Origin: a virus
IMG/VR virus record: IMGVR_UViG_3300010885_013193
Coordinates: 1-50,322 of that record
DNA length: 50,322 nt
Strand: one strand, 5' to 3'
The notes beneath the pieces were generated by a model. The model saw only the letters and a list, made by a program, of their open reading frames with translations. It ran no database searches and was not told where the DNA came from. Position numbers and translations under genes: made by a program. Every line of letters starts with the position of its first letter. Within the stretch, counting starts at the first letter, position 1. Shown piece by piece: positions 1,671-24,455 of the stretch.

Positions 1671-2960
1671 ATGTCCACAGAGAACGAAGTCCAGATCGAG
1701 TACGACGTTTACGGCTTCTCCCGCAACGGCATCCATCGTGACACGGGCACGGAGTATGGCCCGGATGGGTTCAACCGCTACGGCTTCAACGAGGAAGGCT
1801 ACGACCGCTCCGGGTACGACGAGAACGGGTACGACCGCAGTCGATTCGATGAAGACGGATGGCACGAGGAAGGATGGCACCGTGACACGCACACGGAGTT
1901 CTCCCCCAACAGACGCACTCGTGATGGCTCACGCTACAACGACAGTGGCTACGACGCGGACGGATACGACTCCGATGGCATAGACGAGGATGGGTTCTAC
2001 CGTGATGGGTATAACGACGACGGCGAGGATCGCAACGGCTTCAGTCGCTGCGATAACGGCGACTGCGACGATGAGTATTGCTCATGCCGCAACGCTGGCT
2101 GCGATGAACTGCTCGACTCCTGTGCGTGCGTTCTTGAGGAGACTGGCTGGCAGAGGCACGCCTACCGTCGCACCTCACCGACGATAGCGTTCGAGTTCGA
2201 GTGCATCTCCTATTCGACAGCGAACGAAGCACGCGGTCGTCTTCTCAATGCCTACAACCCGGCATACGAGGAACTTGTATGCAAAACAAGCACCGGCGAT
2301 GGTGCCATCTGCAAGCAGGACGGATCTCTTCCCGACACTGGCGTCGAGTTCGTCACGGTGCCGATGTTTCTCGACGAGCATAGGTCTGTGCTGAGAAAGG
2401 CTTTCCGCAACAAGTTCGGTGACGGCTCCGTATCCTCGTGGAACCACACCAAGTGCGGGATGCACGTGCATCTTGCTCGCACCAGCCTGTCGAACCTGAC
2501 GCTGGGCAAGATGCTGTGCTTCATGCACCAGCCAGCCAATGTGCCGTTCCACGTTGCGATTGCTGGTCGCCAGAGTACGTACGCTCAGTTCGTGCATCAC
2601 CGCAGTGCCGTCAGCACTGGCCTGCCAGACAAGGCAGGGAGGGGAGACAAGTATTCGGCACTCAATGTCAAGCCCTACACCGTTGAGTTCCGCATCTTCC
2701 GCCCGTCGTGCAAGTTCGAGACGCTGCTCAAGAACCTGTGCTACTGCCTTGCGGTGCGTGACTTTTGCAGGCAGTCGTCCCTTGACTACCGCGCTTTGAG
2801 TGCGAGTGCGTTCCTGCTGTGGCTTGGCACGACCGACGCTCGCCGCACGTACCGCGAACTCGACGCTTGGTTGCGTGAATCGGACAGCGATTACGGACGG
2901 TCCTATCTGGCGACTGCCCTGCCCGTGCCGAAGCCGAAGCCCGCTCCCGTTGTTGCCTGA
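1671..2960 (+). CDS. Amidoligase-like enzyme with N-terminal acidic pentapeptide repeats, 429 aa
   Basis: Residues about 14-124 are tandem five-residue units of the form D-x-x-G-Y/F, such as DRSGY, DENGY, DADGY and DEDGF. Residues 127-153 hold seven cysteines that could bind metal. Residues about 172-395 look like the glutamine-synthetase-fold amidoligase family (Amidoligase_2 type): FEFECISY, KQDGSLPDTGVEFV, CGMHVHLA and VKPYTVEFRIFRPS. Family members are predicted to use ATP to join an amine to a carboxylate. The next gene is a class II glutamine amidotransferase, which could supply ammonia or swap an amide. Substrate unknown; the acidic repeats may be a substrate of the enzyme itself, which is inference. 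The start at 1671 has a GAGGAGG site. Family call fairly sure, biological role open. Confidence 0.75.
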   Translation: MSTENEVQIEYDVYGFSRNGIHRDTGTEYGPDGFNRYGFNEEGYDRSGYDENGYDRSRFDEDGWHEEGWHRDTHTEFSPNRRTRDGSRYNDSGYDADGYDSDGIDEDGFYRDGYNDDGEDRNGFSRCDNGDCDDEYCSCRNAGCDELLDSCACVLEETGWQRHAYRRTSPTIAFEFECISYSTANEARGRLLNAYNPAYEELVCKTSTGDGAICKQDGSLPDTGVEFVTVPMFLDEHRSVLRKAFRNKFGDGSVSSWNHTKCGMHVHLARTSLSNLTLGKMLCFMHQPANVPFHVAIAGRQSTYAQFVHHRSAVSTGLPDKAGRGDKYSALNVKPYTVEFRIFRPSCKFETLLKNLCYCLAVRDFCRQSSLDYRALSASAFLLWLGTTDARRTYRELDAWLRESDSDYGRSYLATALPVPKPKPAPVVA

Positions 2961-2998
2961 GTCTCACTTCTATCCCTAACTACACAGGAGAATCCTTC

Positions 2999-3883
2999 AT
3001 GTGCCTCGCAATCTACAAGCCCGCCGATACAGCCGCCGACTGGACTGCCTACGAGAACGGATACGCAGACAACCCGCACTCGTGGGGGTTCGCTGCCATT
3101 GTCGATGGTCAACTCGTGACCCGCTGCGGCATCGGCACGTTCGCTGAGTTCCGCTCTGCGTTCGAGCCGCACGCCAACTGCAAGGCGATCATCCACTTCC
3201 GATTCGCCACGCACGGCAGCAAGACGGAGGCCAACTGCCATCCGTTCCTCGTCGCAAGCGATCTTGCCGTCATTCACAACGGCATCATCGACATCAAGTG
3301 CAACGTCCACTCAGACCGCTCTGATACGTGGCATTTCAATGAGTTGATTCTCAAGCCACTTCACCAGCGTGACCCGGACTTCTTCGTGCGTCCAGAGATT
3401 CGGTACACACAGCAGTTAGCCCATCGTGGCAGCAAGTTCGTGTTCCTGCGGGCCGATGGCACGCACGACATCTGGGCTGAGAGCGACGGATGCTGGGAGA
3501 AAGACGGCCACTGGTACAGCAACACGGGCTACAAGTACAGCCGCGTTGCGTACTACACCGCCAGCAATTCGTCCGGTTCAGCGAGCCGGTCGATGTCGTG
3601 CCATCGTGACCTGTCGCCTACCGACTTAGACGACACGCCGATCATGACGAAGCATGAGGTGACGTTCGACCTTGAGGCTGACACTCGTGACCTCGTGAGA
3701 GAGTACGACTACGAGCAGGGGTCGATGTTGCGTGACCCGTACGAGTACGACGAACTCTCCTCGCCAAGCCTTGAGGAGATCGCCCAGTTGCTTCTCGACT
3801 ACGGGTATTCCGAAGCCGTACTCAAGGAGGTGTACGACATCGGTGGCAAGTTCGGGCTGGAGTCTCTGGCAGAAACCCTTTGA
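2999..3883 (+). CDS. Class II (Ntn-type) glutamine amidotransferase, 294 aa
   Basis: The protein begins Met-Cys, giving the N-terminal cysteine nucleophile after Met removal (MCLAIYKP). The family signatures follow in order: HSWGFAAI (27-34), HFRFATHG (66-73), NCHPF (79-83) and HNGII (93-97). These enzymes release ammonia from glutamine and pass it to a partner or fused synthase. No synthase domain is fused here, and the C-terminal 190 residues are not recognised. The gene follows the amidoligase after 38 bases with its own ACAGGAG site, so the two probably work together. After it comes the second copy of the motif/terminator-like leader. Confidence 0.8.
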   Translation: MCLAIYKPADTAADWTAYENGYADNPHSWGFAAIVDGQLVTRCGIGTFAEFRSAFEPHANCKAIIHFRFATHGSKTEANCHPFLVASDLAVIHNGIIDIKCNVHSDRSDTWHFNELILKPLHQRDPDFFVRPEIRYTQQLAHRGSKFVFLRADGTHDIWAESDGCWEKDGHWYSNTGYKYSRVAYYTASNSSGSASRSMSCHRDLSPTDLDDTPIMTKHEVTFDLEADTRDLVREYDYEQGSMLRDPYEYDELSSPSLEEIAQLLLDYGYSEAVLKEVYDIGGKFGLESLAETL

Positions 3884-5043: not shown

Positions 5044-5916
5044 ATGACCCCTTCCACTCTCACTGTCGGTGCCCGCTCCGGTGGCGTGTGCATCCTGAAC
5101 ACACGCTCCTGCCTGCGGGATACCGTTCACGCAGCAGCCGACGCTGTAGGTGCAGGCAAGTACGTACCGCAGCGACCGGCTGTCACTACCACCCTGCGAC
5201 TTGCTATGCAGGAGATCGGCAACGGACTGTACGGCAAGAAGCGCAAGCAGCCCATCGTCCCTCGACACATTGACGACAATGCGTTCGAGTGCGTGCGGGT
5301 TGTGCCGACCAGCGACCGCAACGAGTACCACCACCTGTTCAGTGCCAGCATTGACAGGCAGTGGAACGTGACGGTGCTTGCCCACAACCATGACCACAAC
5401 GGGTACATGGTGCAGACTGCACTCGACAATGCCATCGTCCAGTTGCGTGACTATCTCCCCGCCCCTGTCGTATCACAGGTGACGGTGCGTATCCTGCAAT
5501 CTTGGAAAGCCATGTCGATGTCAGAGCAGGGAGGCGTGTGGTTCCTTGCCGACGATCACCTCGACAACTACCGGGAGTACGCTCGCATCCTGCGGGGTGC
5601 GAACAACAACGGCCCACGCCTCACGCTCACCACGTTCAGCATCGACAGCAATCCCGACACTGTGGAGCAGGTGCTTTCTCAGGTGCGGGATACCGTCAAG
5701 GCTGGCGTCGAGGAGATCATGCGTGACGTGCTGGAGGCAACCGGCGGAATGAACGACCGCTCGATCAACGTGCGTATCGCTCGTGCCAACAAGTTGCTTG
5801 CTCTGGTCGAGCAGTACCAGTCCCTGACGGGCATCTCCATGCCTGAGTTGACGGACGCCATTGAGCAGTGCAAGCAGGCCGTCGCAGTGAACCGGCTGCT
5901 TGCCACGTCCATCTAG
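5044..5916 (+). CDS. Hypothetical protein, 290 aa, likely partner of the MoxR module
   Basis: The ATG at 5044 follows AGGAG and is preferred to the upstream in-frame start at 4954, which overlaps the previous gene. No known motif was seen. Residues about 180-290 are mostly helical with a coiled-coil-like character (DTVKAGVEEIMRDVLEA, then ANKLLALVEQYQSLTG). Phage genes of this size with no recognised domain commonly precede a MoxR ATPase gene; that is a context argument only. A motif/hairpin leader separates it from the ATPase. Confidence 0.65.
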   Translation: MTPSTLTVGARSGGVCILNTRSCLRDTVHAAADAVGAGKYVPQRPAVTTTLRLAMQEIGNGLYGKKRKQPIVPRHIDDNAFECVRVVPTSDRNEYHHLFSASIDRQWNVTVLAHNHDHNGYMVQTALDNAIVQLRDYLPAPVVSQVTVRILQSWKAMSMSEQGGVWFLADDHLDNYREYARILRGANNNGPRLTLTTFSIDSNPDTVEQVLSQVRDTVKAGVEEIMRDVLEATGGMNDRSINVRIARANKLLALVEQYQSLTGISMPELTDAIEQCKQAVAVNRLLATSI

Positions 5917-5934
5917 TTTCCCCCGTAGTTTCCC

Positions 5935-5974
5935 GCTGCGGAGTCGGTATTCTGAGGGGGCAGCGTTGCCCCCT
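5935..5974 (+). promoter_or_regulatory. Motif/hairpin leader 7 (upstream of the AAA+ ATPase)
   Basis: Motif variant GCTGCGGAGTCG at 5935-5946. Perfect 8-bp stem AGGGGGCA (5955-5962) / TGCCCCCT (5967-5974) with loop GCGT, then a pyrimidine run, a GAGGAG site and the ATG at 6003. It is the last copy seen; genes after 7.1 kb lack the motif. Confidence 0.55.
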
Positions 5975-6002
5975 CGTCCCTTTCTATATGAGGAGTTTTC
6001 CT

Positions 6003-7106
6003 ATGGCTCGTACCACTCTTGGCAACAGCCCTGCGTTCCTTGCCTGTCAGGTCACGCCCACCCTCGTGCGTGGCGGAACAGGCGTCGGCAAGTCCTCCAC
6101 GTGGGAGGCACTCGCTGCTGCACTGGGCAGGACATTCGTGCCCCTGCTTGGTGCCACCCACCTGCCCGAAGATTTCTCTGGCTATCCCACGCCAGACCAC
6201 AAGGCACAGGTCACTCGCATGATGGCCTCGTCGTGGGTCGTCAAGACCCGCGACGGCAAGGCACTCGTCCACGTTGACGAGGTGACGAACGTAGCACCCG
6301 CCACTCAAGCGGGCCTGCTCTCAGTCATCTCTGAGCGGCGTGTCGGTGACGAGGTGATGCCTGAGTCCACCATCGTAGTGGGTTCGTGCAACCCGCCTGA
6401 ACTGTGCCCCAATGCAGTGCCGCTGTCGCCTGCCATGCGGGCACGGTTCTTCCACCACGACTGGGTTGTGGACTACGACCACTGGTTTGCTGGCCTGCGG
6501 GCTGGCTGCGTGTGGACGGCACCGGAGTTCCCGATTGTCCCGTCGCACTGGACTGAGTTCCTCCCCAAGTTCGGCTCGCTTGTCGAGGCGTTCTTGCGTG
6601 CAGCACCTGACTGCCGTGAGAAGTTGCCGACCGATGACGAGACGATGAGTTTCCCCAACCCCCGCACGTGGACGTATCTTGCCAAGTGCTTCGCCGCTGC
6701 CGATGCGTGTGGCTACGAGCGGAAAGATCCCATGTTCAAGGCTCTCGCTCTTGGCTGCGTGGGAGAGGCAGTCGGCGGTGAGTTCCTGCGGTACGTCCAT
6801 CAGTTGGACTTGCTCGACCCGGAGTCGATCCTGTCCGGTGCGGCAACCTACACCTACGAGAAGCGGCCCGATGCCAACATTTGCCTGCTCACTGGTCTGG
6901 TGAAGGGGCTGCGGTCCAACTCCACGAAGGAGCGGTGGCTTGCCGCTTCCGATGCGTTCATTGAGATCGGCACGCATGAGATCGAGTCGTTCCTCATGCA
7001 GTTCAAGTCCTTCTGGCGTCCGGTCAAGGACGGTGGCGTTCGGCCCGATGGCTGGTCGCCCCCGAAGGATGTGCTTGCCAAGTTGATGGCACTGGTTCAG
7101 TCTTGA
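6003..7106 (+). CDS. MoxR-type AAA+ ATPase, 367 aa
   Basis: Walker A is GGTGVGKS at residues 24-31, Walker B LVHVDE at 88-93, a sensor-1-like Asn in VGSCNPPE at about 130, and a likely arginine finger in MRARF at about 145-149. MoxR ATPases work with VWA-domain partners to remodel or activate protein complexes, as in the RavA-ViaA and NorQ-NorD pairs. Here a VWA/metallopeptidase gene lies 0.7 kb downstream in the same run. The start at 6003 has a GAGGAG site; longer in-frame starts would run through the leader hairpin. The target of the module is unknown. Confidence 0.85.
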   Translation: MARTTLGNSPAFLACQVTPTLVRGGTGVGKSSTWEALAAALGRTFVPLLGATHLPEDFSGYPTPDHKAQVTRMMASSWVVKTRDGKALVHVDEVTNVAPATQAGLLSVISERRVGDEVMPESTIVVGSCNPPELCPNAVPLSPAMRARFFHHDWVVDYDHWFAGLRAGCVWTAPEFPIVPSHWTEFLPKFGSLVEAFLRAAPDCREKLPTDDETMSFPNPRTWTYLAKCFAAADACGYERKDPMFKALALGCVGEAVGGEFLRYVHQLDLLDPESILSGAATYTYEKRPDANICLLTGLVKGLRSNSTKERWLAASDAFIEIGTHEIESFLMQFKSFWRPVKDGGVRPDGWSPPKDVLAKLMALVQS

Positions 7107-7134
7107 TCCACACCCCCCTACTAAGGAGACACGC

Positions 7135-7428
7135 ATGTTCACAAACAGCGACGACTTCATGTCCGCAGGCAAGAAGGAAGTCCGGTTCTATCTGGACGAG
7201 ACTGAGTACCCACTCTCTGATTACGTCGCAGAGTGGGTCGAATGGAAGGCCGACCACAAGATCATCCACCGCACGTTGCGGTCGTTCGTCCCAAGCGACA
7301 CAGACCCGATGGCGGTGCGAGCGCAGATCATCGGAATGAACGGCGACGACACGCCGGTCTGGTTCATGGGTGCGCTGCGTCACCTGTGCGACCACCGCCC
7401 ACGTACGCAGAAGGAGGACGAAGCATGA
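7135..7428 (+). CDS. Hypothetical protein, 97 aa
   Basis: ATG at 7135 after an AAGGAG site. No known domain is seen. The sequence is a mixed alpha/beta pattern with several Trp residues (YVAEWVEWKADHKIIH, then VWFMGALRHLCDH). The stop overlaps the next start as ATGA, so the two are translationally coupled within the MoxR-VWA run. Confidence 0.6.
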   Translation: MFTNSDDFMSAGKKEVRFYLDETEYPLSDYVAEWVEWKADHKIIHRTLRSFVPSDTDPMAVRAQIIGMNGDDTPVWFMGALRHLCDHRPRTQKEDEA

Positions 7429-7853
7429 AGTGTTCTATCTGCAACAAAGAGATAGCCGTCAAGGAGGGCGGCTGGGATAGCGGCAACAACGCACAGCCAG
7501 TGAACGATGGTCGGTGTTGCGACGAGTGCAACGCTACGGTGGTGATACCCGCGCGTCTGGCTGAAGTGGGAGACAGGCAGGATTCGGACGAAGAGGAGCC
7601 GGAACACTGGCTCTACCTGCGGAACTGGCACGGATTCACCAGCGTTGTTAGCGAGGGAGAGAAGTGGTCGGTTGCGTATGAGATGACCGGGAAAACGGGC
7701 AGGCTGTTTGCCGCCGCTCCTTCCATGCTCACAACCCTGCGTGACTTGCGTAGGGAGATGAAGTCTGGCTCGATCCTTGATGCGGGAAACATCGAGGCGT
7801 GGATCAAGGAACTCGACACCGTTATTGCCAATGCGGAAGGGAGGGATGAATGA
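7425..7853 (+). CDS. Zinc-ribbon hypothetical protein, 142 aa
   Basis: The ATG at 7425 overlaps the previous stop and has AAGGAGG upstream. The N-terminus has two cysteine knuckles, CSICNKE and CCDECN, 28 residues apart, a likely zinc ribbon. A short acidic linker follows, then a domain with LYLRNWHGFTSV and a helical end. No function can be assigned. The stop overlaps the VWA gene start as ATGA. Confidence 0.65.
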   Translation: MKCSICNKEIAVKEGGWDSGNNAQPVNDGRCCDECNATVVIPARLAEVGDRQDSDEEEPEHWLYLRNWHGFTSVVSEGEKWSVAYEMTGKTGRLFAAAPSMLTTLRDLRREMKSGSILDAGNIEAWIKELDTVIANAEGRDE

Positions 7854-9301
7854 CACCACGACAACTACTGGGCCAAGCAAGGGTACATACCTTCGAGTAC
7901 GTACCCTACCTTGCGTCCTACATCTACAGCCTGCGTGAGCAGGAGACTCCGGGCATCGGCACTGCTGCCGTTGACCAAGCGGGCAACCTCTACTGGTGCC
8001 CGGAGTTCATCACCAAGATCGGCAAGGAACAGGGTGCATACGTCGTGGCCCACGAGGTATTGCACATCATCTACCAGCACCATGTACGAGCGAAGGAGAT
8101 CATCGGGGATCACCCGACTGAACTCCAGCGATACGTGTGCAATGTGGCTGGCGATCTTGTTGTCGAGCAGACGCTATCCATGATGCGGCACCTTCGACCA
8201 GAGGGTGCCATCCATCTGGGCAGCGACATCCCCAACTGGGGAATCAAGTTGAACTTTCCTGAGAACAAGTCGATGCAGGAATACTATCGACTCATCATGG
8301 AGAAGTTGCAGTCCAAGCACAAGCAGTCACAGAAAGGAGATAGCGATGGCAAAGGCGACAGTGAACGGAGTGCCGACAGAAGCGACGAACAGGGCGATTC
8401 AGGAGACGGCGCTGCTGATTCAAGTGATGGAAACGACGACGCCGACTTCATCCCCGAAGATGACGGCACTGAGGCGGATGGCAAGGGCACTCAGGCTGAC
8501 AGCGGAAAGGGGTCGCCTTCGAGTGGGAAGGGCAAGGCGCCGCCGCTGCCCTGTTCTCCGGGCAGTGGCGGCTCGTGTGCGGACGGTCAGCCACGCGAGT
8601 ATGAGGTAGATAACGACGGGTCATGGGAGACGTACGCAGAAGACATGGCCGCTGCCCAAGCGGAGGTAGCCATCGCGGAGTATGAGGAGTCACATCCCGG
8701 CAGTGTTCCGGGCCAGATCAAGCAAGCCCTCGACTGCAAACTGCGACCGCAACCTGACCCGTTCGATCAGTTGCGGTCTGCTGTTTGCACGAGCGTTGCC
8801 TCGCCGGTCGGTGGTCGTGACTTCTCGCACCGCCGCCGGTCCCGCAAGCAGCCGCCCGGAGAGGATGATCCGCTGCTGCATGGCCGCATCACAGTGCAGC
8901 CCCATGCAGTCGTGATCGTGGACACGTCGATGTCCATGATGACGAAGGACACGCAGGCTCGTGCCCTGTCAGTGATCGGTCAGGGTCTGCGGAAGTTGTC
9001 TCGTGTTCGCGTCTACTGCGCTGACACCCATGTCCGCTCGAACAAGTTGGTGGCACACACCCGCACGTTTGAGTGGGCCGGTGGCGGTGGCACAGACATG
9101 GCTCTGGCACTGGAAGAAGTTGATCGCCGCGACCATCCAGACTCCATCATCATCGTCACCGACGCTGAGACGGACTGGCCGACGAAGAGGCTGCACGCTC
9201 GTGTGGTCGTGGCCTACACAGGCAAGCGTGATTCGTACTACCACAAGTTGATACCCAAGTCCTATCGCACCGTTCCACTGGAAGGAGGGGCTAATGCCTA
9301 A
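7850..9301 (+). CDS. Metallopeptidase-like/VWA-domain protein, 483 aa (MoxR partner)
   Basis: The N-terminal part carries HEVLHIIYQHH from residue 68, an HExxH zinc motif typical of the predicted metallopeptidase half of DUF2201-type proteins. Residues about 160-240 are a low-complexity Ser/Asp/Gly linker. The C-terminal part is a VWA fold with a complete MIDAS: DTSMS (358-362), Thr415 in GGGTDM and Asp438 in VTDAE. Proteins of this plan are usually encoded with a MoxR ATPase, as here, and are thought to be chaperone-like adaptors. Whether the peptidase site is active is not known. Confidence 0.82.
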   Translation: MTPRQLLGQARVHTFEYVPYLASYIYSLREQETPGIGTAAVDQAGNLYWCPEFITKIGKEQGAYVVAHEVLHIIYQHHVRAKEIIGDHPTELQRYVCNVAGDLVVEQTLSMMRHLRPEGAIHLGSDIPNWGIKLNFPENKSMQEYYRLIMEKLQSKHKQSQKGDSDGKGDSERSADRSDEQGDSGDGAADSSDGNDDADFIPEDDGTEADGKGTQADSGKGSPSSGKGKAPPLPCSPGSGGSCADGQPREYEVDNDGSWETYAEDMAAAQAEVAIAEYEESHPGSVPGQIKQALDCKLRPQPDPFDQLRSAVCTSVASPVGGRDFSHRRRSRKQPPGEDDPLLHGRITVQPHAVVIVDTSMSMMTKDTQARALSVIGQGLRKLSRVRVYCADTHVRSNKLVAHTRTFEWAGGGGTDMALALEEVDRRDHPDSIIIVTDAETDWPTKRLHARVVVAYTGKRDSYYHKLIPKSYRTVPLEGGANA

Positions 9302-10159: not shown

Positions 10160-10339
10160 ATGTTTACGTGGGCTATCCGCATCGCAGTGTTTGCGTTCAT
10201 GTTTTGGACGATGAGCATTCCCGGAACGGAGTGCTACATCTCACCGCAGTGCTGGTCCGTAATCGTCCTCATCTACTGGTTCGTTACCCGAAAGCAGGAG
10301 AACAATCATGCCAGTCGTATACGCATATGGCCGTGCTAG
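10160..10339 (+). CDS. Small membrane protein, 59 aa
   Basis: ATG at 10160 after AAGGAG. Two hydrophobic stretches, WAIRIAVFAFMFWTM and WSVIVLIYWFV, separated by a short loop with two Cys, suggest a two-span membrane protein. The 3' end overlaps the recombinase start by 32 bases in another frame. No family is recognised. Confidence 0.55.
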   Translation: MFTWAIRIAVFAFMFWTMSIPGTECYISPQCWSVIVLIYWFVTRKQENNHASRIRIWPC

Positions 10340-11048
10340 TACCAGCAAACAGACGCTCACCGAATCCCACCAGCGTGGCGTGTGCGAGGAGTACATCAAA
10401 CGCACGCTACTGCCAGAGGGCTGGGTGTTTGGGGGCTGGCTCTACGATGCAGCCACCAGCGGCAGCAAGCCGATGTTCGAGCGCGAGGAGGGCCGCAAGT
10501 TGTGGGCACTGGTGCAGCCCGGAGACAAGATCGTGTGGGCCAAGTTGGATCGGGCCTTCCGTTCGGTCATCGACGCCGCCCAGACTATGCACCTGTTGCA
10601 GCACAAGGACGTGTCGTTCAACTCGCTCGACTTGGGACTCGACACTAGCACACCCATCGGCAGGTGTGTGTTCACCATCCTTACTGCGTTTGCCGAACTC
10701 GAACTGGAGTTCATCAAGCAACGCACGCGGGACGGGTTGCTATCCAAGATCAAGGGCGGCAAGCCCCACAATCGCCACGCCCCGATTGGCTGGATGAAGA
10801 TAGGGAAGAAGAAGGATTCCTACTACATGCCAGACATAAACGAGCGGGCGCAGGTTGCGGTGATGACGGTGATGCGACAGTCAGGTGCGTCACTCGAACG
10901 CTTGACCTGCCACATGCGTCGAGTACGCAGGTCGAACGGCAAGGCGTGGAACATCAACTCCATCACCCGTGCCCTCAGGGCAGCAAGCCATCGCTTTCCA
11001 AAAGCGTTTGAAGAACGAACAAAGCGGCGGAAAGCCTGCGCCGTATAG
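10308..11048 (+). CDS. Serine site-specific recombinase (resolvase/invertase family), 246 aa
   Basis: The N-terminal catalytic domain has YGRAST with nucleophile Ser11 and Arg9, the DKIVWAKLDRAFRS segment that carries catalytic arginines, and the long E-helix (RCVFTILTAFAELELEFIKQ). The C-terminal region (about 150-246) is short and suggests a small helix-turn-helix DNA-binding part, so this is a resolvase/invertase-size enzyme, not a large serine integrase. Start ATG after AGGAG. Its last 74 bases overlap, tail to tail, the sigma factor gene on the other strand. A separate tyrosine integrase exists, so this one may resolve multimers or invert a segment. Confidence 0.85.
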   Translation: MPVVYAYGRASTSKQTLTESHQRGVCEEYIKRTLLPEGWVFGGWLYDAATSGSKPMFEREEGRKLWALVQPGDKIVWAKLDRAFRSVIDAAQTMHLLQHKDVSFNSLDLGLDTSTPIGRCVFTILTAFAELELEFIKQRTRDGLLSKIKGGKPHNRHAPIGWMKIGKKKDSYYMPDINERAQVAVMTVMRQSGASLERLTCHMRRVRRSNGKAWNINSITRALRAASHRFPKAFEERTKRRKACAV

Positions 11049-11496
11049 TTCGTGGGTCACAACCCGCCTGCTCCCCAATCTCCCGCAGGCTCATGCCCCG
11101 ATAGAAGCGGGCGTGAATCAACTTGCGGGACTTGGGTGGCAGGCGGGCGATGGCTACGTGCAGCCTGCCTGACAGCCCCTTCACTGTGACGGCCAATGCT
11201 TCGGCCAGTTCCATAGGCACACGATCCGGCGAGTCGTAGCGTGCCCTGCGATTCCGGTCTATCTCCTTGAGCAACGCATTCCTAACGGCCATAGAGAAGT
11301 ACGTTGTGATCTTGGACTGCTCCGGGTTGTACGTTCGAGACGCACGGCACACAGCCAGATAGGCTATGGACGTTACGTCTATGACGGCCAACTGCTTGCG
11401 GAGCGTGGGATAACGGCAGCGAAAGGCAGCAATCGCCTTCGGCACCACTTCTAGGGCACGCTCTGCCAGCCGCTGCTGTTCGTCCGTGAGTCGCAT
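10975..11496 (-). CDS. Sigma-70 family RNA polymerase sigma factor, 173 aa
   Basis: The protein is sized like a minimal sigma factor. Region 2-like sequence lies at about 39-85 (YNPEQSKITTYFSMAVRNALLKEI). Region 4 lies at about 117-165 with a helix-turn-helix (SLREIGEQAGCDPRTIRRR). Regions 1 and 3 are missing or very short. It would redirect host RNA polymerase to phage promoters. Candidate targets in the window are the CATAAAT-type sequences at 16019-16033 and 34967-34981, or the early-region motif. Last gene of its minus-strand run; ribosome site weak. Confidence 0.78.
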   Translation of the reverse strand: MRLTDEQQRLAERALEVVPKAIAAFRCRYPTLRKQLAVIDVTSIAYLAVCRASRTYNPEQSKITTYFSMAVRNALLKEIDRNRRARYDSPDRVPMELAEALAVTVKGLSGRLHVAIARLPPKSRKLIHARFYRGMSLREIGEQAGCDPRTIRRRLSAALFVLQTLLESDGLLP

Positions 11497-17700: not shown

Positions 17701-17990
17701 TGCTCCTCCTTGAGCCTGTATCCAAGTGCCCACAAGATTCGGGCAAGGTCGTTGCCCTGCTGCGTAACGTGTTCTTCTGACTGCGTTGGGTTGGCTGCAT
17801 GGAGGAACTCATGTATCTCCGTGTTCAGCCGTGCCCTACCTCTAAGCCTTTCGTCAATCAGAATCTTTTCTTCCATGAATGGATTCTTTGGATCACGGAC
17901 GAACGCCCATCCCTGCGCCTGACCTTTCAGGCGTGTGTACCGCCACAGCCAGCGGATGCCACCGATGAGGAATGAGTGGTTCTCTGGCAT
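17697..17990 (-). CDS. Zincin-like small metallopeptidase domain protein, 97 aa
   Basis: The motif TEIHEFLHA gives HExxH with His60, Glu61 and His64. No third ligand is certain, but a later His in QSEEHVTQQG is a candidate. Small zincin-like proteins without a signal are common in phages and of unknown role. The ATG at 17990 overlaps the previous stop as TGATG. Confidence 0.6.
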   Translation of the reverse strand: MPENHSFLIGGIRWLWRYTRLKGQAQGWAFVRDPKNPFMEEKILIDERLRGRARLNTEIHEFLHAANPTQSEEHVTQQGNDLARILWALGYRLKEEQ

Positions 17991-18691
17991 CACATCGCTC
18001 CCTGAACTTGCTGCACAAATCTTTTGATCTGCTCCAGCGGGAACGTCACGAGCCATTCGGTATCGTTCTTCCGATGCAGAACTACGGGGCACAGTTCCCC
18101 GCACTGCTCACGTGATTTCTCCATCACCTTCTGGAGATTGATGACCTGAGTTCGCTTTACCTCCAGCCAGAGGTGCGGAGTGCCGGGACTGATAAGGTCG
18201 CTGGCACTCTCCGTTCCACTGTGCTGCTGCGAGCGACGCGAGTGGGCATTGGGCAAGTGCTTGTTCCACTCGTCCTTCGCCTCCAGTTCGCCCGCCTTGC
18301 CTTTGCGTCTGCTGTTGATTGCCATGCGTACTAACTCCAATGGGATTCCGTTCCTTCGCCGCCAGTGAAACACCCGAAACGGATAACGCTCCGGGCCATA
18401 GCCAAGATGCTTCTTGTGCCGCAACGCAGCCAAGAACTCAGGGTCGTAGTTGGCGTCGTCCGTCTCCCGCTTGGCTGTGAGGCACATTCCTTTCGTGATG
18501 TCGTGCTTGCCGCCGAAGTGCAAGCCGTCGTGGCAGTAGTGACAGAGCCGCAGCAACGCCTTGCGGTGATGCACCCTCCCTGCCCCTTGTTGCAGGTGGT
18601 GGATGTGCAACGCTTCCGTCCGCGTCCAGCACATCGCACAGAACGGGTATTCGTCCGCGAAGGTCGATAGTTCTTTACTGCCATCGCTCAC
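17990..18691 (-). CDS. HNH-like plus PD-(D/E)XK-like fusion nuclease, 233 aa
   Basis: GTG start at 18691 (GTGA overlap with the previous stop, with GGAGGGGG upstream). Residues 18-57 look like an HNH/zinc-finger nuclease: CAMC, HIHHL and CHYCH. Residues 123-225 resemble a PD-(D/E)XK nuclease, with RKGKAGELEAKDEW, SASDL (Asp165), LEVKR (Glu177, Lys179) and WLVTFPLE. An internal ATG at 18325 has TTGGAG upstream and would give the second domain alone. No stop separates the two halves. A DNA repair, resolvase or packaging role is possible. Confidence 0.7.
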   Translation of the reverse strand: MSDGSKELSTFADEYPFCAMCWTRTEALHIHHLQQGAGRVHHRKALLRLCHYCHDGLHFGGKHDITKGMCLTAKRETDDANYDPEFLAALRHKKHLGYGPERYPFRVFHWRRRNGIPLELVRMAINSRRKGKAGELEAKDEWNKHLPNAHSRRSQQHSGTESASDLISPGTPHLWLEVKRTQVINLQKVMEKSREQCGELCPVVLHRKNDTEWLVTFPLEQIKRFVQQVQGAM

Positions 18692-18963
18692 TCCCCCTCC
18701 TCCGTTACGGCCCCGACGATTGCCCGCACGGAGTTCGAGAACGCCAGTGCGTCCTCCTTCGTCTTGAACTCGATCTGCCAGCGGTAGGCTCGCTCGCCCG
18801 TCATCAAGTCGGTGGCATCCTCGACGCGATGAATGCGGCACGCAGCCACGCCACCCAACGTCTTGGCGTTCGCCACCAGAACCTCGTTCTCTTTCCACAG
18901 TGCGCTCAGTGCGCTTCCAATAAACCCAGCCATAAGCACAACTCCTTTCGTGAAATCAGACAC
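18688..18963 (-). CDS. Small hypothetical protein, 91 aa
   Basis: An N-terminal hydrophobic stretch (GVVLMAGFIGSALSALW) suggests a weak membrane or signal segment, followed by a soluble domain with AYRWQIEFKTKEDALAF. An alternative start at the internal Met11 is possible. It sits between DNA metabolism genes. No family is recognised. Confidence 0.55.
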   Translation of the reverse strand: MSDFTKGVVLMAGFIGSALSALWKENEVLVANAKTLGGVAACRIHRVEDATDLMTGERAYRWQIEFKTKEDALAFSNSVRAIVGAVTEEGE

Positions 18964-19917: not shown

Positions 19918-21525
19918 CTAGCGGGGTTGCTGCGACTCCTGAGTTCGACGGTCAAGTTCCTTCCTGACCGCTGATTTGAATGGGCTGTCTTTCTTCTGGG
20001 CACCAAGCACCCACGAGAGGTAGCCCTGAGGAATGTCCTTGAGCGGCACACCCCGATACTTGCCGTACATCATTCGCCAGCCACGAACCTTCGGCTTGTT
20101 CTCCGGCTCTGCGAACACGTCCCGGTCGCCATGCTCAAACGTCACGCCGACGATCAACGCCTTGCGCTTCTCAATCAGTTCCCGCGTCTGTGCCTCAAGG
20201 GCTGCAAGATCGGCGGCATCGGCCTCGCGGATCGCCTCCATCACGTCCGTGCCGTCAGCCGACAGCGTGGACTCCAGCCGCTCCTTGCGGGACGGAGACT
20301 TCCGTAACTTGTGGTCGAGAACATCGAACACAGACAGGATCTGCTGATTGCGAATCGACCCCGTGATGTCCCAGTAATTGAAATGTGGCTTCGCAGATGC
20401 CTTGATTGCCGCAGCACGCTCGTCCCGCGTCATCTCGTGATGGAGGGTGCCCGTCAGCGTGCGTGTGCCTCTGCCAAGACGCTGCTCCAGAACATGAAGT
20501 TGGCGTGTCGGTGCCGCCGAATAGATGTTGCGTAGTTCCGGGTGATCCCACCCGTACCCCAAGATGCCGACGTTCACGATGATCTTCGATTCGCCCGTCA
20601 GGAACGCCTGCATGTTGTCCCTGCGAATCAGAGGATTCTGTTTGCTGTAGACGATGCTGGCCTTCGCCCCGTACCGCTCGAAAACTTCTGCCAGCAACTT
20701 CGCCTGCTTGACGTTGTGTGCGTACACCACAGACGGCTGGCAGTTGTAGGTGGAGAGGACAAGCGACGTGACTTCCTGTGCGTAGTGTTCCGCAGCCAGA
20801 ACCGCAGCGAGTTGTCTCTCGTCCCACTCGCCAGCAACCTCGTCCACCATCGTCATGTCGAGCGATGTGGCCTCGCTGACGTGGCACATGGGCGGCACCA
20901 GATAGGAGTCATCCAGTGCCTGCCGCAGCGTGTAGACGGATTGCGGACGGGGAAAGAATCGAAGCCCCTTGCCCCTGCCCTTGTAGGGAGTCGCACTGAA
21001 TCCAACGATGGTGGCACCGCGATTCTCGAAGTAACACAGCAGCCGCTCCATAGCGGGCGTGATCTTGACGTGGCACTCGTCCACCGCCACAAGACTCACG
21101 CGGTCGAACGCACTGGAGCGATACCGCCCGGAGGACAGCATCGAGTCCCGGCTGGCAACGATCACTCGATTGCGCAACCCCTCGACCGACTCTGCGTAGT
21201 TGCCGCCCTGCTCAACGTCGCACTGCTCACCCAGCCGCATCTCAAGGCGATCCCTGCCCTGACGCATGAGGTCGAGCAACGGCACCAGCAGCAGCGGGTT
21301 CTTTGCGATCCGAAACAGTTCGCAGATAACCTCTGTCTTGCCGGTGCCAACTGGCTGGCAGACGGTGATCCGACGCTCGCCCCGCTTGGCGGCAAGGCAC
21401 ACGTCCTCGACCGCCTGCCTCTGGTAATCGCGGAGATACGCACGCTCTGCCTGCCTGCGCTGCTGCCGCGTCTCTGCCTCTTGGCACATGCCCTCTTCGT
21501 CGGCATCCATCCATGCGTCACTCAT
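19918..21525 (-). CDS. SF2 DNA/RNA helicase (DECH box), 535 aa
   Basis: Helicase motifs are in order: Q-like LRDYQRQAVE (31-40), Walker A QPVGTGKTE (57-65), DECH (149-152), SATPYKGRG (177-185) and, in the C-terminal lobe, QRLGRGTRT. This is the plan of superfamily 2 helicases such as UvsW/RecG-like remodelers. ATG at 21525 overlaps the previous stop as ATGA. It lies two genes downstream of the ERF gene, consistent with recombination or replication restart. Confidence 0.88.
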   Translation of the reverse strand: MSDAWMDADEEGMCQEAETRQQRRQAERAYLRDYQRQAVEDVCLAAKRGERRITVCQPVGTGKTEVICELFRIAKNPLLLVPLLDLMRQGRDRLEMRLGEQCDVEQGGNYAESVEGLRNRVIVASRDSMLSSGRYRSSAFDRVSLVAVDECHVKITPAMERLLCYFENRGATIVGFSATPYKGRGKGLRFFPRPQSVYTLRQALDDSYLVPPMCHVSEATSLDMTMVDEVAGEWDERQLAAVLAAEHYAQEVTSLVLSTYNCQPSVVYAHNVKQAKLLAEVFERYGAKASIVYSKQNPLIRRDNMQAFLTGESKIIVNVGILGYGWDHPELRNIYSAAPTRQLHVLEQRLGRGTRTLTGTLHHEMTRDERAAAIKASAKPHFNYWDITGSIRNQQILSVFDVLDHKLRKSPSRKERLESTLSADGTDVMEAIREADAADLAALEAQTRELIEKRKALIVGVTFEHGDRDVFAEPENKPKVRGWRMMYGKYRGVPLKDIPQGYLSWVLGAQKKDSPFKSAVRKELDRRTQESQQPR

Positions 21526-21827
21526 TTGGCCCTCGCCTTCTTCTTGCGGGTCTTCTTCGCCGCCTTCTTGGCAACAGGCTTGTGCCACCTGTCGCTGCAA
21601 ATGGTGGCCTCGCAGACCTTCACTTCTGGCTGCTCTGGGGCTGCGTCCTGCATCGGCAAACCAAGAGCGATCTCAAATCGCTGGTTCACGCGAGACAGGA
21701 CTTCGAGTTCAGCAAGGATTTGCGGAACTGCGTCACGGCAAAACACGAGAGCCACTTCCTCGTCAAGTTGATTCTGCGAGGCGGCAATCGCAACGAGTCG
21801 GGCGTATGAAATTAGTTTTTCGCTCAT
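21522..21827 (-). CDS. Small protein with basic Lys-rich tail, 101 aa
   Basis: The body (1-80) is helical and the last 20 residues are almost all Lys, Ala and Arg (KKAAKKTRKKKARAK), like a histone-type tail for nucleic-acid binding. ATG at 21827 directly follows a terminator-like hairpin and has no good ribosome site, which is odd; a longer start is also weak. Between the ERF and helicase genes, so a recombination accessory role is likely. Confidence 0.55.
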   Translation of the reverse strand: MSEKLISYARLVAIAASQNQLDEEVALVFCRDAVPQILAELEVLSRVNQRFEIALGLPMQDAAPEQPEVKVCEATICSDRWHKPVAKKAAKKTRKKKARAK

Positions 21828-21905: not shown

Positions 21906-22580
21906 TCAGGCCGTTACGGGTTCGGGACGCTTTGTGGCAGGCTTGGCATCGAGGTCTTCTGCCAAGCGGGACAGACGGTCGAGGGCGGGCTGCGTGAGCA
22001 TCCCCTCGCTAACGCCCTTCCGGGCACGATCCAACTCTGCCTTTCGACCAGCCGCGTCCTTTGCGGACTTGATCTTTCCGGCCAGAGCCTGCTCGATGCG
22101 TGCCTCGTCGTTCGCCACCGCAATCGCCGTGCTGCGGTTGGCCGTCTCGCCGTCGTCGTCGTCGTCCGCTGCAATGCCAACGGCAGCACAGATGGCGACT
22201 CGCTTCAGGTAGGTTGCCGTCTTGGCAAGTTCCTGCGGCGGGATGTTGCCCTTCATCGGAAGGTACGAACGCTCAAACTGACCGGACGAATGCCCGATAG
22301 TGGTGACAAGCATGATGGTGCCGTCATCGCTGTAAGGACAGAACGTCTGACGAATCGACAGTCCGTTTGCCGCATAGGCCGTTCGGATCGTGTCGAAGAC
22401 TGTGGCAAGGTCGGCGTAGTCGGGCAGCAACTCGCCCGTCTTCTTGTCCTTCCGTGCCCAGTTGCTGTAGCAGGTGCGAGGTGCGTTCTTGAGTTGGCCG
22501 AAGGCTTTCGCCATAGCGGCATACAACTCATCGACGTGTTCGCTCTGCTCTTTCCATACTGATGCGTTGATAACGCTCAT
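21906..22580 (-). CDS. ERF-family single-strand annealing protein, 224 aa
   Basis: The region YADLATVFDTIRTAYAANG (55-73) and the following strand pair, GTIMLVTTIGHSSGQFE, with the later TATYLKRVAICAAVGIAADD match the ERF family of phage annealing proteins. The ATG at 22580 overlaps the exonuclease stop as ATGA, the usual coupling of an annealing protein with its exonuclease. The start lies well inside the longest frame because the upstream part overlaps the exonuclease. Role: annealing of single strands in recombination. Confidence 0.85.
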   Translation of the reverse strand: MSVINASVWKEQSEHVDELYAAMAKAFGQLKNAPRTCYSNWARKDKKTGELLPDYADLATVFDTIRTAYAANGLSIRQTFCPYSDDGTIMLVTTIGHSSGQFERSYLPMKGNIPPQELAKTATYLKRVAICAAVGIAADDDDDGETANRSTAIAVANDEARIEQALAGKIKSAKDAAGRKAELDRARKGVSEGMLTQPALDRLSRLAEDLDAKPATKRPEPVTA

Positions 22581-23644
22581 CCCATTCTCCCCAGCACATG
22601 AGCCGGAAATTGGAGTTCCACTACCTCGCCGTGTGTATCCGGCACCCACCAGTCGAGGCTTTCACGAAGACGGAGTTCCGCCAGCACCTTGTCCATGAGG
22701 CGCTGGCCTTCTGCGATAAGGGACGCAGGCAACGTCACGACCTGACAGTCGTGCGGCAGCGATGTGCTGATGACGATGTAGTGCAGCGGCTTCGGTTCCA
22801 TGCCGCAGGCTTCCATGCCCCGCATGTACCAAGCGCAGGAAAAGTGGTACTTGAAGTCGAGGACCGACTTCCACCAATCACGCAGGATGTCCGCTTCTCT
22901 CGTACTCTTGAGATCGCAGACGATGCCATCGCTGGTGAGGGCATCGAACTTGCAGCGCAGGTTGTCGCCGTTGGGTGTCGTCCACCGCACCGACAACTCA
23001 TGCTCAACGAACCGCTCACGCAGGGCCATCGCCTGCGGCGTGTTCTCTATCGCCCGAATCTCAGACTTGATCTGGCGGAAAAGTTTTGGAGCGACGAGGA
23101 CGGCATCTGTCCCATGCTCTTTTTCAGCCCACTGGCGAGCGTCCTTGCCAACCTGTCCGGTGGCGGTTAGTTTCTCTTCTGGAGGGACCGCCCACGTATC
23201 AAGGACGGGATCGCCGTGCTGAAACCAATCGTGCAGCAGTGAGCCATGATCGGTGGCCTCGCTACTGAACGGCGGGATCGAGCCGGTAACGTGGCGGGCG
23301 TGATAGAGAGGAATGCTGTCCAGTGCAGTGCTGCAACTGGTGGCGTTCCTGTAGGCCCGATCCTTGTGATATGCGTCGTTCGACTCTCCACGACGAATAT
23401 CCGCAACGCAGGCGGAAAACGAACCAATAGGACTAGAAGAAGGGTGGCTAACGGGACTCGAACCCGCGACCCCTAGAATCACAATCTCGTGGTCAGTCGG
23501 GGCGGTGATCGTAGCGTTTGCGTCAACTTGTTCCCCACCGCCAGCGGGTGTGACAGGTGCCAGAAGGGGGTTTCCCACTACCCCCACGCGAGGAGAATGG
23601 CCCGCCTCAGTCTTGTGCTTCGCAACCGCTTGCTTAACAACCAT
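22577..23644 (-). CDS. PD-(D/E)XK recombination exonuclease (RecE/YqaJ-like), 355 aa, with attP inside its 5' end
   Basis: The conserved part has HGSLLHDWF (133-141) and KFDALTSDGIVCDLKST (232-248) with Asp234, Asp244 and Lys246, the pattern of RecE/Cas4-like exonucleases. The downstream ERF gene overlaps by ATGA, as in Red/RecET pairs. The ATG at 23644 has GGAGG at a 9-base spacing. The frame then runs through the tRNA-His-like attP (codons about 53-68), where it reads as the usual nonsense of a tRNA gene. A later start is not ruled out, but no other ATG lies before residue 200; a GTG at 23482 lies within attP. Confidence 0.75.
   Translation of the reverse strand: MVVKQAVAKHKTEAGHSPRVGVVGNPLLAPVTPAGGGEQVDANATITAPTDHEIVILGVAGSSPVSHPSSSPIGSFSACVADIRRGESNDAYHKDRAYRNATSCSTALDSIPLYHARHVTGSIPPFSSEATDHGSLLHDWFQHGDPVLDTWAVPPEEKLTATGQVGKDARQWAEKEHGTDAVLVAPKLFRQIKSEIRAIENTPQAMALRERFVEHELSVRWTTPNGDNLRCKFDALTSDGIVCDLKSTREADILRDWWKSVLDFKYHFSCAWYMRGMEACGMEPKPLHYIVISTSLPHDCQVVTLPASLIAEGQRLMDKVLAELRLRESLDWWVPDTHGEVVELQFPAHVLGRMG
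23442..23488 (-). other. attP core: 3' half of a tRNA-His gene
   Basis: In minus-strand sense it reads from the anticodon loop ATTGTGAT (His, GTG) through the T arm GGTTCGAGTCC to the acceptor end GTTAGCCACCC. This is a close match to the 3' half of bacterial tRNA-His. The 5' half (GGTGGCT and D arm) is absent, so it is not a tRNA gene. Phage genes flank it on both sides and the integrase starts 155 bases away, which fits the crossover region of attP and predicts attB in a host tRNA-His gene. Confidence 0.82.
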
Positions 23645-24455
23645 GACCAATGACCTCCATGCCGTCGCCTCGCAGTATTGCGAGTGCCGCGTTCTTGCGG
23701 ACGACTACGAATCCAACCTACTGCGGGTCGCAAAAAACTGTCAACGACCCGACTGCATCAACACCTACCTGAAATCTCGACTCACTCAGGTTTCTGCTCG
23801 CACCGTACGGAACGAGCGGGACATGCTACTCATCCTGTTGCGATGGGGACGCCAGCACAACCTGATCGACTCCTTGCCACCAGAGATCGTAAAGATCAGG
23901 GTGCAGAAGGAGCCGACTAAGGCGTGGACTTTAGGGCAGGCGTGTACGGTTGTCAAGCGCACTTCCGTCCACGTTGGCAAGAAAATGAAAAGCGGTGCGG
24001 ACAGGGGTGAATTTCTGCGGTGCTGGACCCTGCTGGCGTGGGAAACTGGGGCACGATGGGGGGATTTGTGGAAACTGCGGGACAAACATTTCGACGGCCC
24101 ACTTCTGAGGTACTCGCAGAACAAGACCTGCAATCCAATAAATACGGTGCTTACCCCCACCTGCACTGCCGCTGTCAATGCCATGCTGGCAAAGTCGCCG
24201 GATGGAACCGTCCTGCGCTGGGCGTGCGGCAAGCGGTGGGCGATGCGGCTGATGAAGCAGTTGGTTGGAGACTGCGGGGTGGATGGCACGAGCAAGTGGT
24301 TCCGCCGGTCGGCGGCGACACAGATAGAGATAGAGCGGCCCGGACAGGCTCGACTGTTTCTTGGGCACAAGTCCGTAGGCATGTGCGAGAAGCACTACCT
24401 CGATTGGTCGCAGATCCGCAAGGACATTCCCAGACCGCCACCACTACTCGAATAG
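23643..24455 (+). CDS. Tyrosine integrase, 270 aa
   Basis: The C-terminal catalytic domain shows Arg138 in ETGARWGDL, Lys161 in QNKT, Arg221/222 in KWFRRSAAT (the usual His before it is Lys), His242 in LFLGHKS and nucleophile Tyr252 in CEKHYLDW. An N-terminal core-binding domain precedes it; there is no clear arm-binding domain. It would integrate the phage at tRNA-His using the adjacent attP. The ATG at 23643 lacks a ribosome site and shares CATG with the divergent exonuclease start. Its last 12 bases overlap the converging virion gene. Confidence 0.85.
   Translation: MTNDLHAVASQYCECRVLADDYESNLLRVAKNCQRPDCINTYLKSRLTQVSARTVRNERDMLLILLRWGRQHNLIDSLPPEIVKIRVQKEPTKAWTLGQACTVVKRTSVHVGKKMKSGADRGEFLRCWTLLAWETGARWGDLWKLRDKHFDGPLLRYSQNKTCNPINTVLTPTCTAAVNAMLAKSPDGTVLRWACGKRWAMRLMKQLVGDCGVDGTSKWFRRSAATQIEIERPGQARLFLGHKSVGMCEKHYLDWSQIRKDIPRPPPLLE

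Follow-up and report, generated by a model that had tools for sequence, protein, structure and literature searches.

Attachment sites that change the genes in which, or beside which, they lie are known from several mobile elements. In the integration-dependent immunity of mycobacteriophages (BPs; clusters G, I, N, and P), attP is located within a phage reading frame, integration alters the product and excision restores it (PMC4557955). In BPs the gene concerned is the repressor, and truncation of its 3' end yields the active form (PMC4557955; also PMC9934374). The transfer genes of Tn916 are expressed only from the circle, since its promoters and genes lie on opposite sides of the att site and are joined only in that form (PMC9632896). 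SSV-type elements of archaea carry suicidal integrases, with attP in a coding gene, attB in a tRNA, and the integrase gene split upon integration (PMC8371274). Additionally, ICEclc has an outward promoter (PMC6561031), and in tRNA-dependent lysogeny a core of approximately 10 bp breaks the host tRNA and the phage supplies one (PMC10865867).

The locus described here was found in a viral record of 50,322 bases, hereafter called the window (table 1), and recurs across a family of phages that infect planctomycetes. An earlier note on this DNA had likened it to the mycobacteriophages, a likeness that holds for the idea of an attP within a phage gene but not for the gene or the end affected: an exonuclease gene takes the place of the repressor, and the putative promoters, the ribosome-binding site and the 5' end are lost instead of the 3' end. 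Promoter-like sequences (P1 and P2) and genes lie on opposite sides of att as in Tn916, but there transcription units are joined, whereas here a frame and its start codon would be rebuilt as well, in a phage with a tRNA attB. Unlike in the SSV-type elements, the integrase gene (int) stays whole and its neighbor, the exonuclease gene (exo), is split; unlike in tRNA-dependent lysogeny as described in that source, the host tRNA is rebuilt. A RecE-like nuclease followed by an Erf annealing protein recalls the RecE/RecT- and Erf-type phage recombination modules, yet in this case the nuclease gene has a long 5' extension that carries attP.

In the open-licence literature we found no early operon headed by a recombination nuclease gene that its own attachment site splits, and little on temperate phages of planctomycetes. 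Phages that change a repressor by integration and archaeal elements that split an integrase gene are known already; the arrangement put forward here, if true, would couple recombination in the phage to excision with no need of a repressor, in a form retained across several tRNA specificities.

Table 1. Position, strand and supporting matches of the features of the window.
Feature	Position	Strand	Basis
Viral record	50,322 bases		IMG/VR virus record
exo, RecE/exonuclease VIII-like nuclease with ~73-codon 5' extension holding the putative attP	22577..23644	-	PF12684, phrog_412, PDB 3h4r profile
exo start codon ATG	23642..23644	-	overlaps int start codon as CATG
exo ribosome-binding site GGAGGT	23653..23658	-	upstream of ATG 23644
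Putative attP core (tRNA-His 3' half), in frame at exo codons 53-68	23441..23487	-	identity to planctomycete MAG tRNA-His
exo codon GAG, becoming TAG (host tRNA base) in predicted attL	23486..23488	-	computed attL, 11/11
P1, promoter-like TTGACA-18-TAGGTT, exo-ward, within int	23715..23744	-	10/10 tRNA-His phages, -97/-100
P2, promoter-like TTGACA-17-TAAAGT, exo-ward, within int	23928..23956	-	25/26 phages, about -310
int, tyrosine integrase, divergent from exo	23643..24455	+	phrog_1 E=1.2e-9
G-run/C-run hairpin between exo start and attP core	23566..23585	-	same place in 9/11 tRNA-His phages
Erf-type single-strand annealing protein, gene directly after exo in operon	21906..22580	-	PF04404 E=1.6e-11
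DEAD/ResIII helicase, early operon	19918..21600	-	profile matches
RusA-like Holliday junction resolvase, early operon	17990..18898	-	phrog_244 E=4.7e-12

The tRNA-Derived Core within the Exonuclease Gene

A block of 47 bp in the exo frame is identical to the 3' half of a planctomycete tRNA-His, from the anticodon stem to the acceptor end, at the codons where the earlier note had located the core. It is the sole T-arm-like sequence on either strand of the window, it is matched by tRNA-His genes in host MAGs, and it lies in frame in all 11 phages that carry it (the window and ten relatives, with 0-1 mismatches over 41 bp); it is thus not a chance resemblance. Its 41-bp heart recurs in 16 planctomycete MAGs, in 18 stretches altogether; the titles of these MAGs are Planctomycetaceae, Planctomycetia, Planctomicrobium or Kuenenia. 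A full tRNA-His gene is found in 17 of these stretches, and the remaining one (L025) is a second copy of the core on a contig, CALQRA010000019, that has the tRNA too. Identity between phages and tRNA genes extends over 46-49 bp in phages with tRNA-His, tRNA-Met and tRNA-Val (L084) cores and breaks off in the anticodon stem. In the tRNA-His phages it stops at the very base that would make a stop codon, the phages having CAG (nine) or GAG (two) and the host TAG. On these grounds the block appears to be the attP core and a host tRNA-His gene its attB, the alternatives being disfavored.

The ribosome-binding site and ATG of exo were said to lie on the far side of attP, and this is borne out by their positions. 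Between the block and the nuclease domain the exo frame of the window contains no in-frame ATG, GTG or TTG; the block itself holds a GTG, which is the anticodon and corresponds to exo codon 57, or to codon 59 if counted from TTG 23650. The frame of int is open further upstream to GTG 23505, and even with this extension it would not overlap the core. The window has no terminal repeats and no Rfam match, and 24 kb of it compared by Megablast with isolated phages gave no match.

The nuclease domain of Exo matches PF12684 (E=1e-13) and phrog_412 (E=1.8e-34), and a profile of its relatives matches exodeoxyribonuclease 8 (PDB 3h4r, E=3.1e-23) in a region behind attP, the query profile having itself begun there. 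D161, D171 and K173, which we take to be the acidic residues and lysine of a PDDEXK catalytic site, are invariant in an alignment of 12 sequences (A6). By these matches Exo is a member of the RecE/exonuclease VIII-like (DUF3799) family and a predicted nuclease. Over 16 pairs, hand-picked as close relatives, pN/pS ranges from 0.41 to 1.08 in the extension between the ATG and the core, and from 0.14 to 0.47 in the domain; the N-extension behaves like a translated, tolerant leader. The AlphaFold model of Exo is weak (mean pLDDT 53.5), with very low confidence in the N-extension. The integrase matches phrog_1 and phrog_216, and PF00589 is recognized in five of six aligned integrases, the protein of the window being the exception.

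Relatives and the Signals Encoded within int

Scans retrieved 49 loci with the nuclease, of which 40 were examined after two fragments (L052, L087) and seven weak or partial loci (L092-L098) had been left out. Omission of near-duplicate and edge loci (L056, L065, L066, L071-L073, L076, L078, L080, L082, L083, L086, L091) gave a set of 28 phages, namely 27 loci and the window. Besides the ten loci with a tRNA-His core, five (four distinct) have another tRNA core in frame at the same place of exo: tRNA-Val in L084 and L085/L086, and tRNA-Met in L089 and L090. The tRNA-Val core is read in different frames by L084 and L085, and both frames are open. The int-exo layout is kept in 25 of the 40 loci with no tRNA-like core in exo, and so does not depend on this attP. 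Group B (L055, L056, L058, L059, L064-L068, L070-L083, L088, L091) combines the same layout with an exo N-extension and has no tRNA-like core. A search for its att site with 1061 bases of DNA in 396 genomes gave weak matches alone, the best at 50.9 bits.

An integrase relative adjoins exo in 37 of the 40 loci, and the other three are cut by contig ends. The start codons of int and exo overlap as CATG in 27/28 phages, an arrangement in which the 5' ends of the two divergent mRNAs must be complementary. The exo frame is likewise open from the int-overlapping ATG to the nuclease domain in 27/28; because that ATG was chosen within the open stretch, the telling point is that the frame stays open as far as the int start. 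Of the other two forward frames, one is free of stops in 1/27 phages and the other in 4/27. Among isolated phages, tblastn with Exo returned 94 records, all below 60% identity and at approximately 27-30% among the matches listed, and the integrase had no match. Viral contigs scanned with the integrase alone, or with the exo of L032, gave no match either. One candidate, L011 (a 29% match), was rejected as unrelated on reading by eye.

Two further observations concern the stretch around the core. At 3768-3841 of L069, with identical sequence in L009, ARAGORN calls a tRNA-His over attP itself, as the bases ahead of the core in the phage happen to supply the rest of a tRNA-like fold. The G-run/C-run hairpin, which nine of the 11 tRNA-His phages have 59-72 nt past the exo ATG and most others lack, is perhaps a control site of int or an arm site.

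The signals for exo lie within int, where they can be followed through codon usage. Among the ten tRNA-His phages for which int sequence is available, at least nine rows agree on the residue in 68 int columns. A single codon is used throughout in nine of these columns, five of which coincide with exo signals on the opposite strand. Leu5 is CTC in 10/10 and is the complement of the exo ribosome site; Cys33 (TGT) and Gln34 (CAA) form the TTGACA of P1 read from the other strand; and Thr98 (ACT) and Val106 (GTC) coincide with P2. Leu26, in the second hexamer of P1, is encoded by CTA in nine phages and by TTA in the tenth. Among the integrases counted, both TGT (45/198) and CAA (49/207) are minority codons. 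P1 is present in 10/10 tRNA-His phages, against a mean of 2.6 and a maximum of 6 of 10 in 200 synonymous shuffles that ignore kinship, and P2 in 25/26 phages drawn from all groups, where 300 such shuffles, kinship again ignored, average 7.4 with a maximum of 14 of 26. Both point toward exo, both lie on the int side of attP, and both are conserved beyond synonymous expectation. At the level of codons, P1, P2 and the ribosome site constrain int, and we infer that P1 and P2 are promoters.

Integration Separates exo from Its Start Signals

With attP in the first part of exo, integration should strip the gene of its start signals and excision should restore them. To compute attL, the 5' half of the host tRNA-His was joined to each phage and the product checked with ARAGORN. 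In 11/11 junctions the tRNA-His is rebuilt, a TAG from the host anticodon stem immediately precedes the core within the exo frame, and the sole usual start left before the nuclease domain is the anticodon GTG. Computed with real tRNA-Met genes, the tRNA-Met junctions give a comparable picture: the tRNA is rebuilt, an in-frame TAG appears and a GTG remains. L138 was rejected as a host tRNA-Met, being the lone 3' half of another element. In the tRNA-Val phages, the computed attL of L085 has no start before the domain and that of L084 keeps one TTG, in the tRNA. The outcome is the same wherever the strands exchange within the identical block.

A natural junction of a relative was found in MAG G005. 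Its contig C271 has the host genes MutS, DnaX, RecR and NrdR on one side of an intact tRNA-Met; on the other side a RecE-like frame follows directly behind the tRNA, and then Erf-like and replication-initiator genes. A stop within the tRNA marks the beginning of this exo frame, in which ATG, GTG and TTG are all absent ahead of residue 170 of 309, a position midway through the nuclease domain; the product of the frame is 45-49% identical to the Exo proteins of the tRNA-Met phages L089 and L090. The other end of the prophage was not found in G005. That integration would cut the Exo frame from its start signals, as the earlier note had claimed, follows from the sequence in 11/11 tRNA-His phages and in the Met and Val relatives, and the cut is seen at one natural junction of a relative.

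Overlapping samples of 72, 396, 397 and 392 genomes at family, order, class and phylum level contained the tRNA-exo adjacency only in G005, and no lysogen of the window phage or of any tRNA-His relative. Other RecE-like genes in the sampled planctomycete genomes were set aside, as no tRNA adjoins exo; among them, L049 has a doubtful tRNA call more than 1 kb away and L112 fell outside the ARAGORN scan. At 264-337 of L141 (G043) a tRNA-Met is followed by a second 3' half at about 9238, some 8.9 kb away; these tRNA genes seem to serve other elements as well (tRNA-Met in L141, tRNA-His in L025). For prophage searches, we predict that exo genes lacking a start directly behind tRNA genes are a usable signature; in lysogens, gene callers can be expected to overlook such genes or to give them a wrong start.

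A Proposed Switch and Its Alternatives

We consider it likely that exo, and probably the early operon with it, loses its connection to promoter, ribosome site and start upon integration and regains it upon excision. In the free phage, transcripts from P1 and P2 within int would cross the ribosome site, the ATG and attP into exo and continue into the early genes for Erf, the helicase and the RusA-like resolvase. The integrase would then recombine attP with the 3' half of the host tRNA-His. In the resulting prophage the promoters, the ribosome site and the first 52-53 codons of exo would remain beside int at one end, and the body of exo would come to lie at the opposite end, directly behind the rebuilt tRNA-His and with the in-frame TAG of the tRNA ahead of it. 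The only usual start would be the anticodon GTG, within a transcript that matures to tRNA, and P1 and P2 would be lost to the early operon. Untranslated exo RNA and tRNA processing would reduce expression of the genes behind exo, and excision would restore promoter, start and frame in a single step. In this manner the recombination nuclease, and probably the early operon too, would be switched off by integration and on by excision.

Exo would accordingly be silent in the lysogen, the downstream genes would follow its state, and the switch would benefit the phage or serve lysogeny. Some weak start of Exo could occur at the anticodon GTG of tRNA-His, or at the GTG in the tRNA-Met core, and erf and the later genes may have promoters of their own or be read from the tRNA promoter. 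More tentatively, the attP junction might be the lytic switch itself, the early operon being silenced less by a repressor than by the physical loss of promoters, ribosome site and start, together with a tRNA gene (with its processing sites and stop) placed in front; excision, in restoring the frame of exo, would then be the committing step of induction, and the overlapping divergent 5' ends of int and exo would make the two programs mutually exclusive.

A cut without selective value is a possibility to be taken seriously, although we do not favor it. As attP must adjoin int, the head-to-head packing of int and exo could have dropped a tRNA fragment into a tolerant 5' linker of exo, with nothing to select for the cut because a repressor silences the early genes anyway. 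The weak constraint on the N-extension, its poor definition in the structural model and the phages that share the layout without a tRNA-like core are all in line with such an origin. Against it stand the in-frame position of the cores for three tRNA specificities, read in different frames, and the retention of CAG or GAG instead of TAG in 11/11 phages; what these two features would indicate is that the frame was kept open, not that the cut is useful. It is improbable that Exo stays on in the lysogen in altered form, 56 residues shorter and with the whole nuclease domain, using the tRNA promoter for transcription and the anticodon GTG as its start. This GTG is indeed in frame in the 11 computed tRNA-His attL and a GTG is also in frame in the tRNA-Met attL, and all of the sequence matched by the solved RecE domain is downstream of attP. 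However, the start would sit inside a tRNA that is processed out, with a TAG just ahead of it; moreover, GTG, ATG and TTG are absent there in the natural lysogen, and absent from the computed attL of L085 as far as the domain.

The earlier note had itself named two outcomes that would speak against it, and both are disfavored. An Exo that starts downstream of attP would find no usual start codon, and the upstream ribosome site and ATG are conserved. A non-standard codon in this region (e.g., ATT 23428), with the upstream ATG unused and Exo untouched by integration, would agree with a nuclease domain that begins behind attP, and an ATT or ATC is present there in the window and several relatives. 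Nevertheless, the codon is missing in L006/L054 and L009/L069, the conserved upstream signals constrain int codons, and the exo frame is open to the upstream ATG, so that we regard this as very unlikely. As to integration at another site, with the tRNA-His block a decoy or leftover, we give it hardly any credence. No attL or attR of any tRNA-His phage was found in the four genome samples, and the window also encodes a small serine recombinase. Against this, a tyrosine integrase adjoins the block, and exo wherever contig ends permit; host tRNA-His genes match the block; the long tRNA identity breaks off in the anticodon stem alike in the His, Met and Val (L084) phages; and the lysogen junction of a relative is at a tRNA-Met. 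Disconnection by integration remains the reading we prefer.

The serine recombinase of the window (10308-11048, + strand) is of the invertase/resolvase type and is a second recombinase beside the tyrosine integrase. Its end is overlapped on the opposite strand (10975-11496) by a weak sigma-factor or Q-antiterminator-like regulator. Elsewhere on the + strand, an ATPase (phrog_1297) lies near a DUF2201 metallopeptidase/VWA protein (5868-9301), forming an ATPase-VWA pair, and amidoligase-like and glutamine-amidotransferase-like genes, recognized by weak PHROG matches, adjoin each other at 1671-3883.
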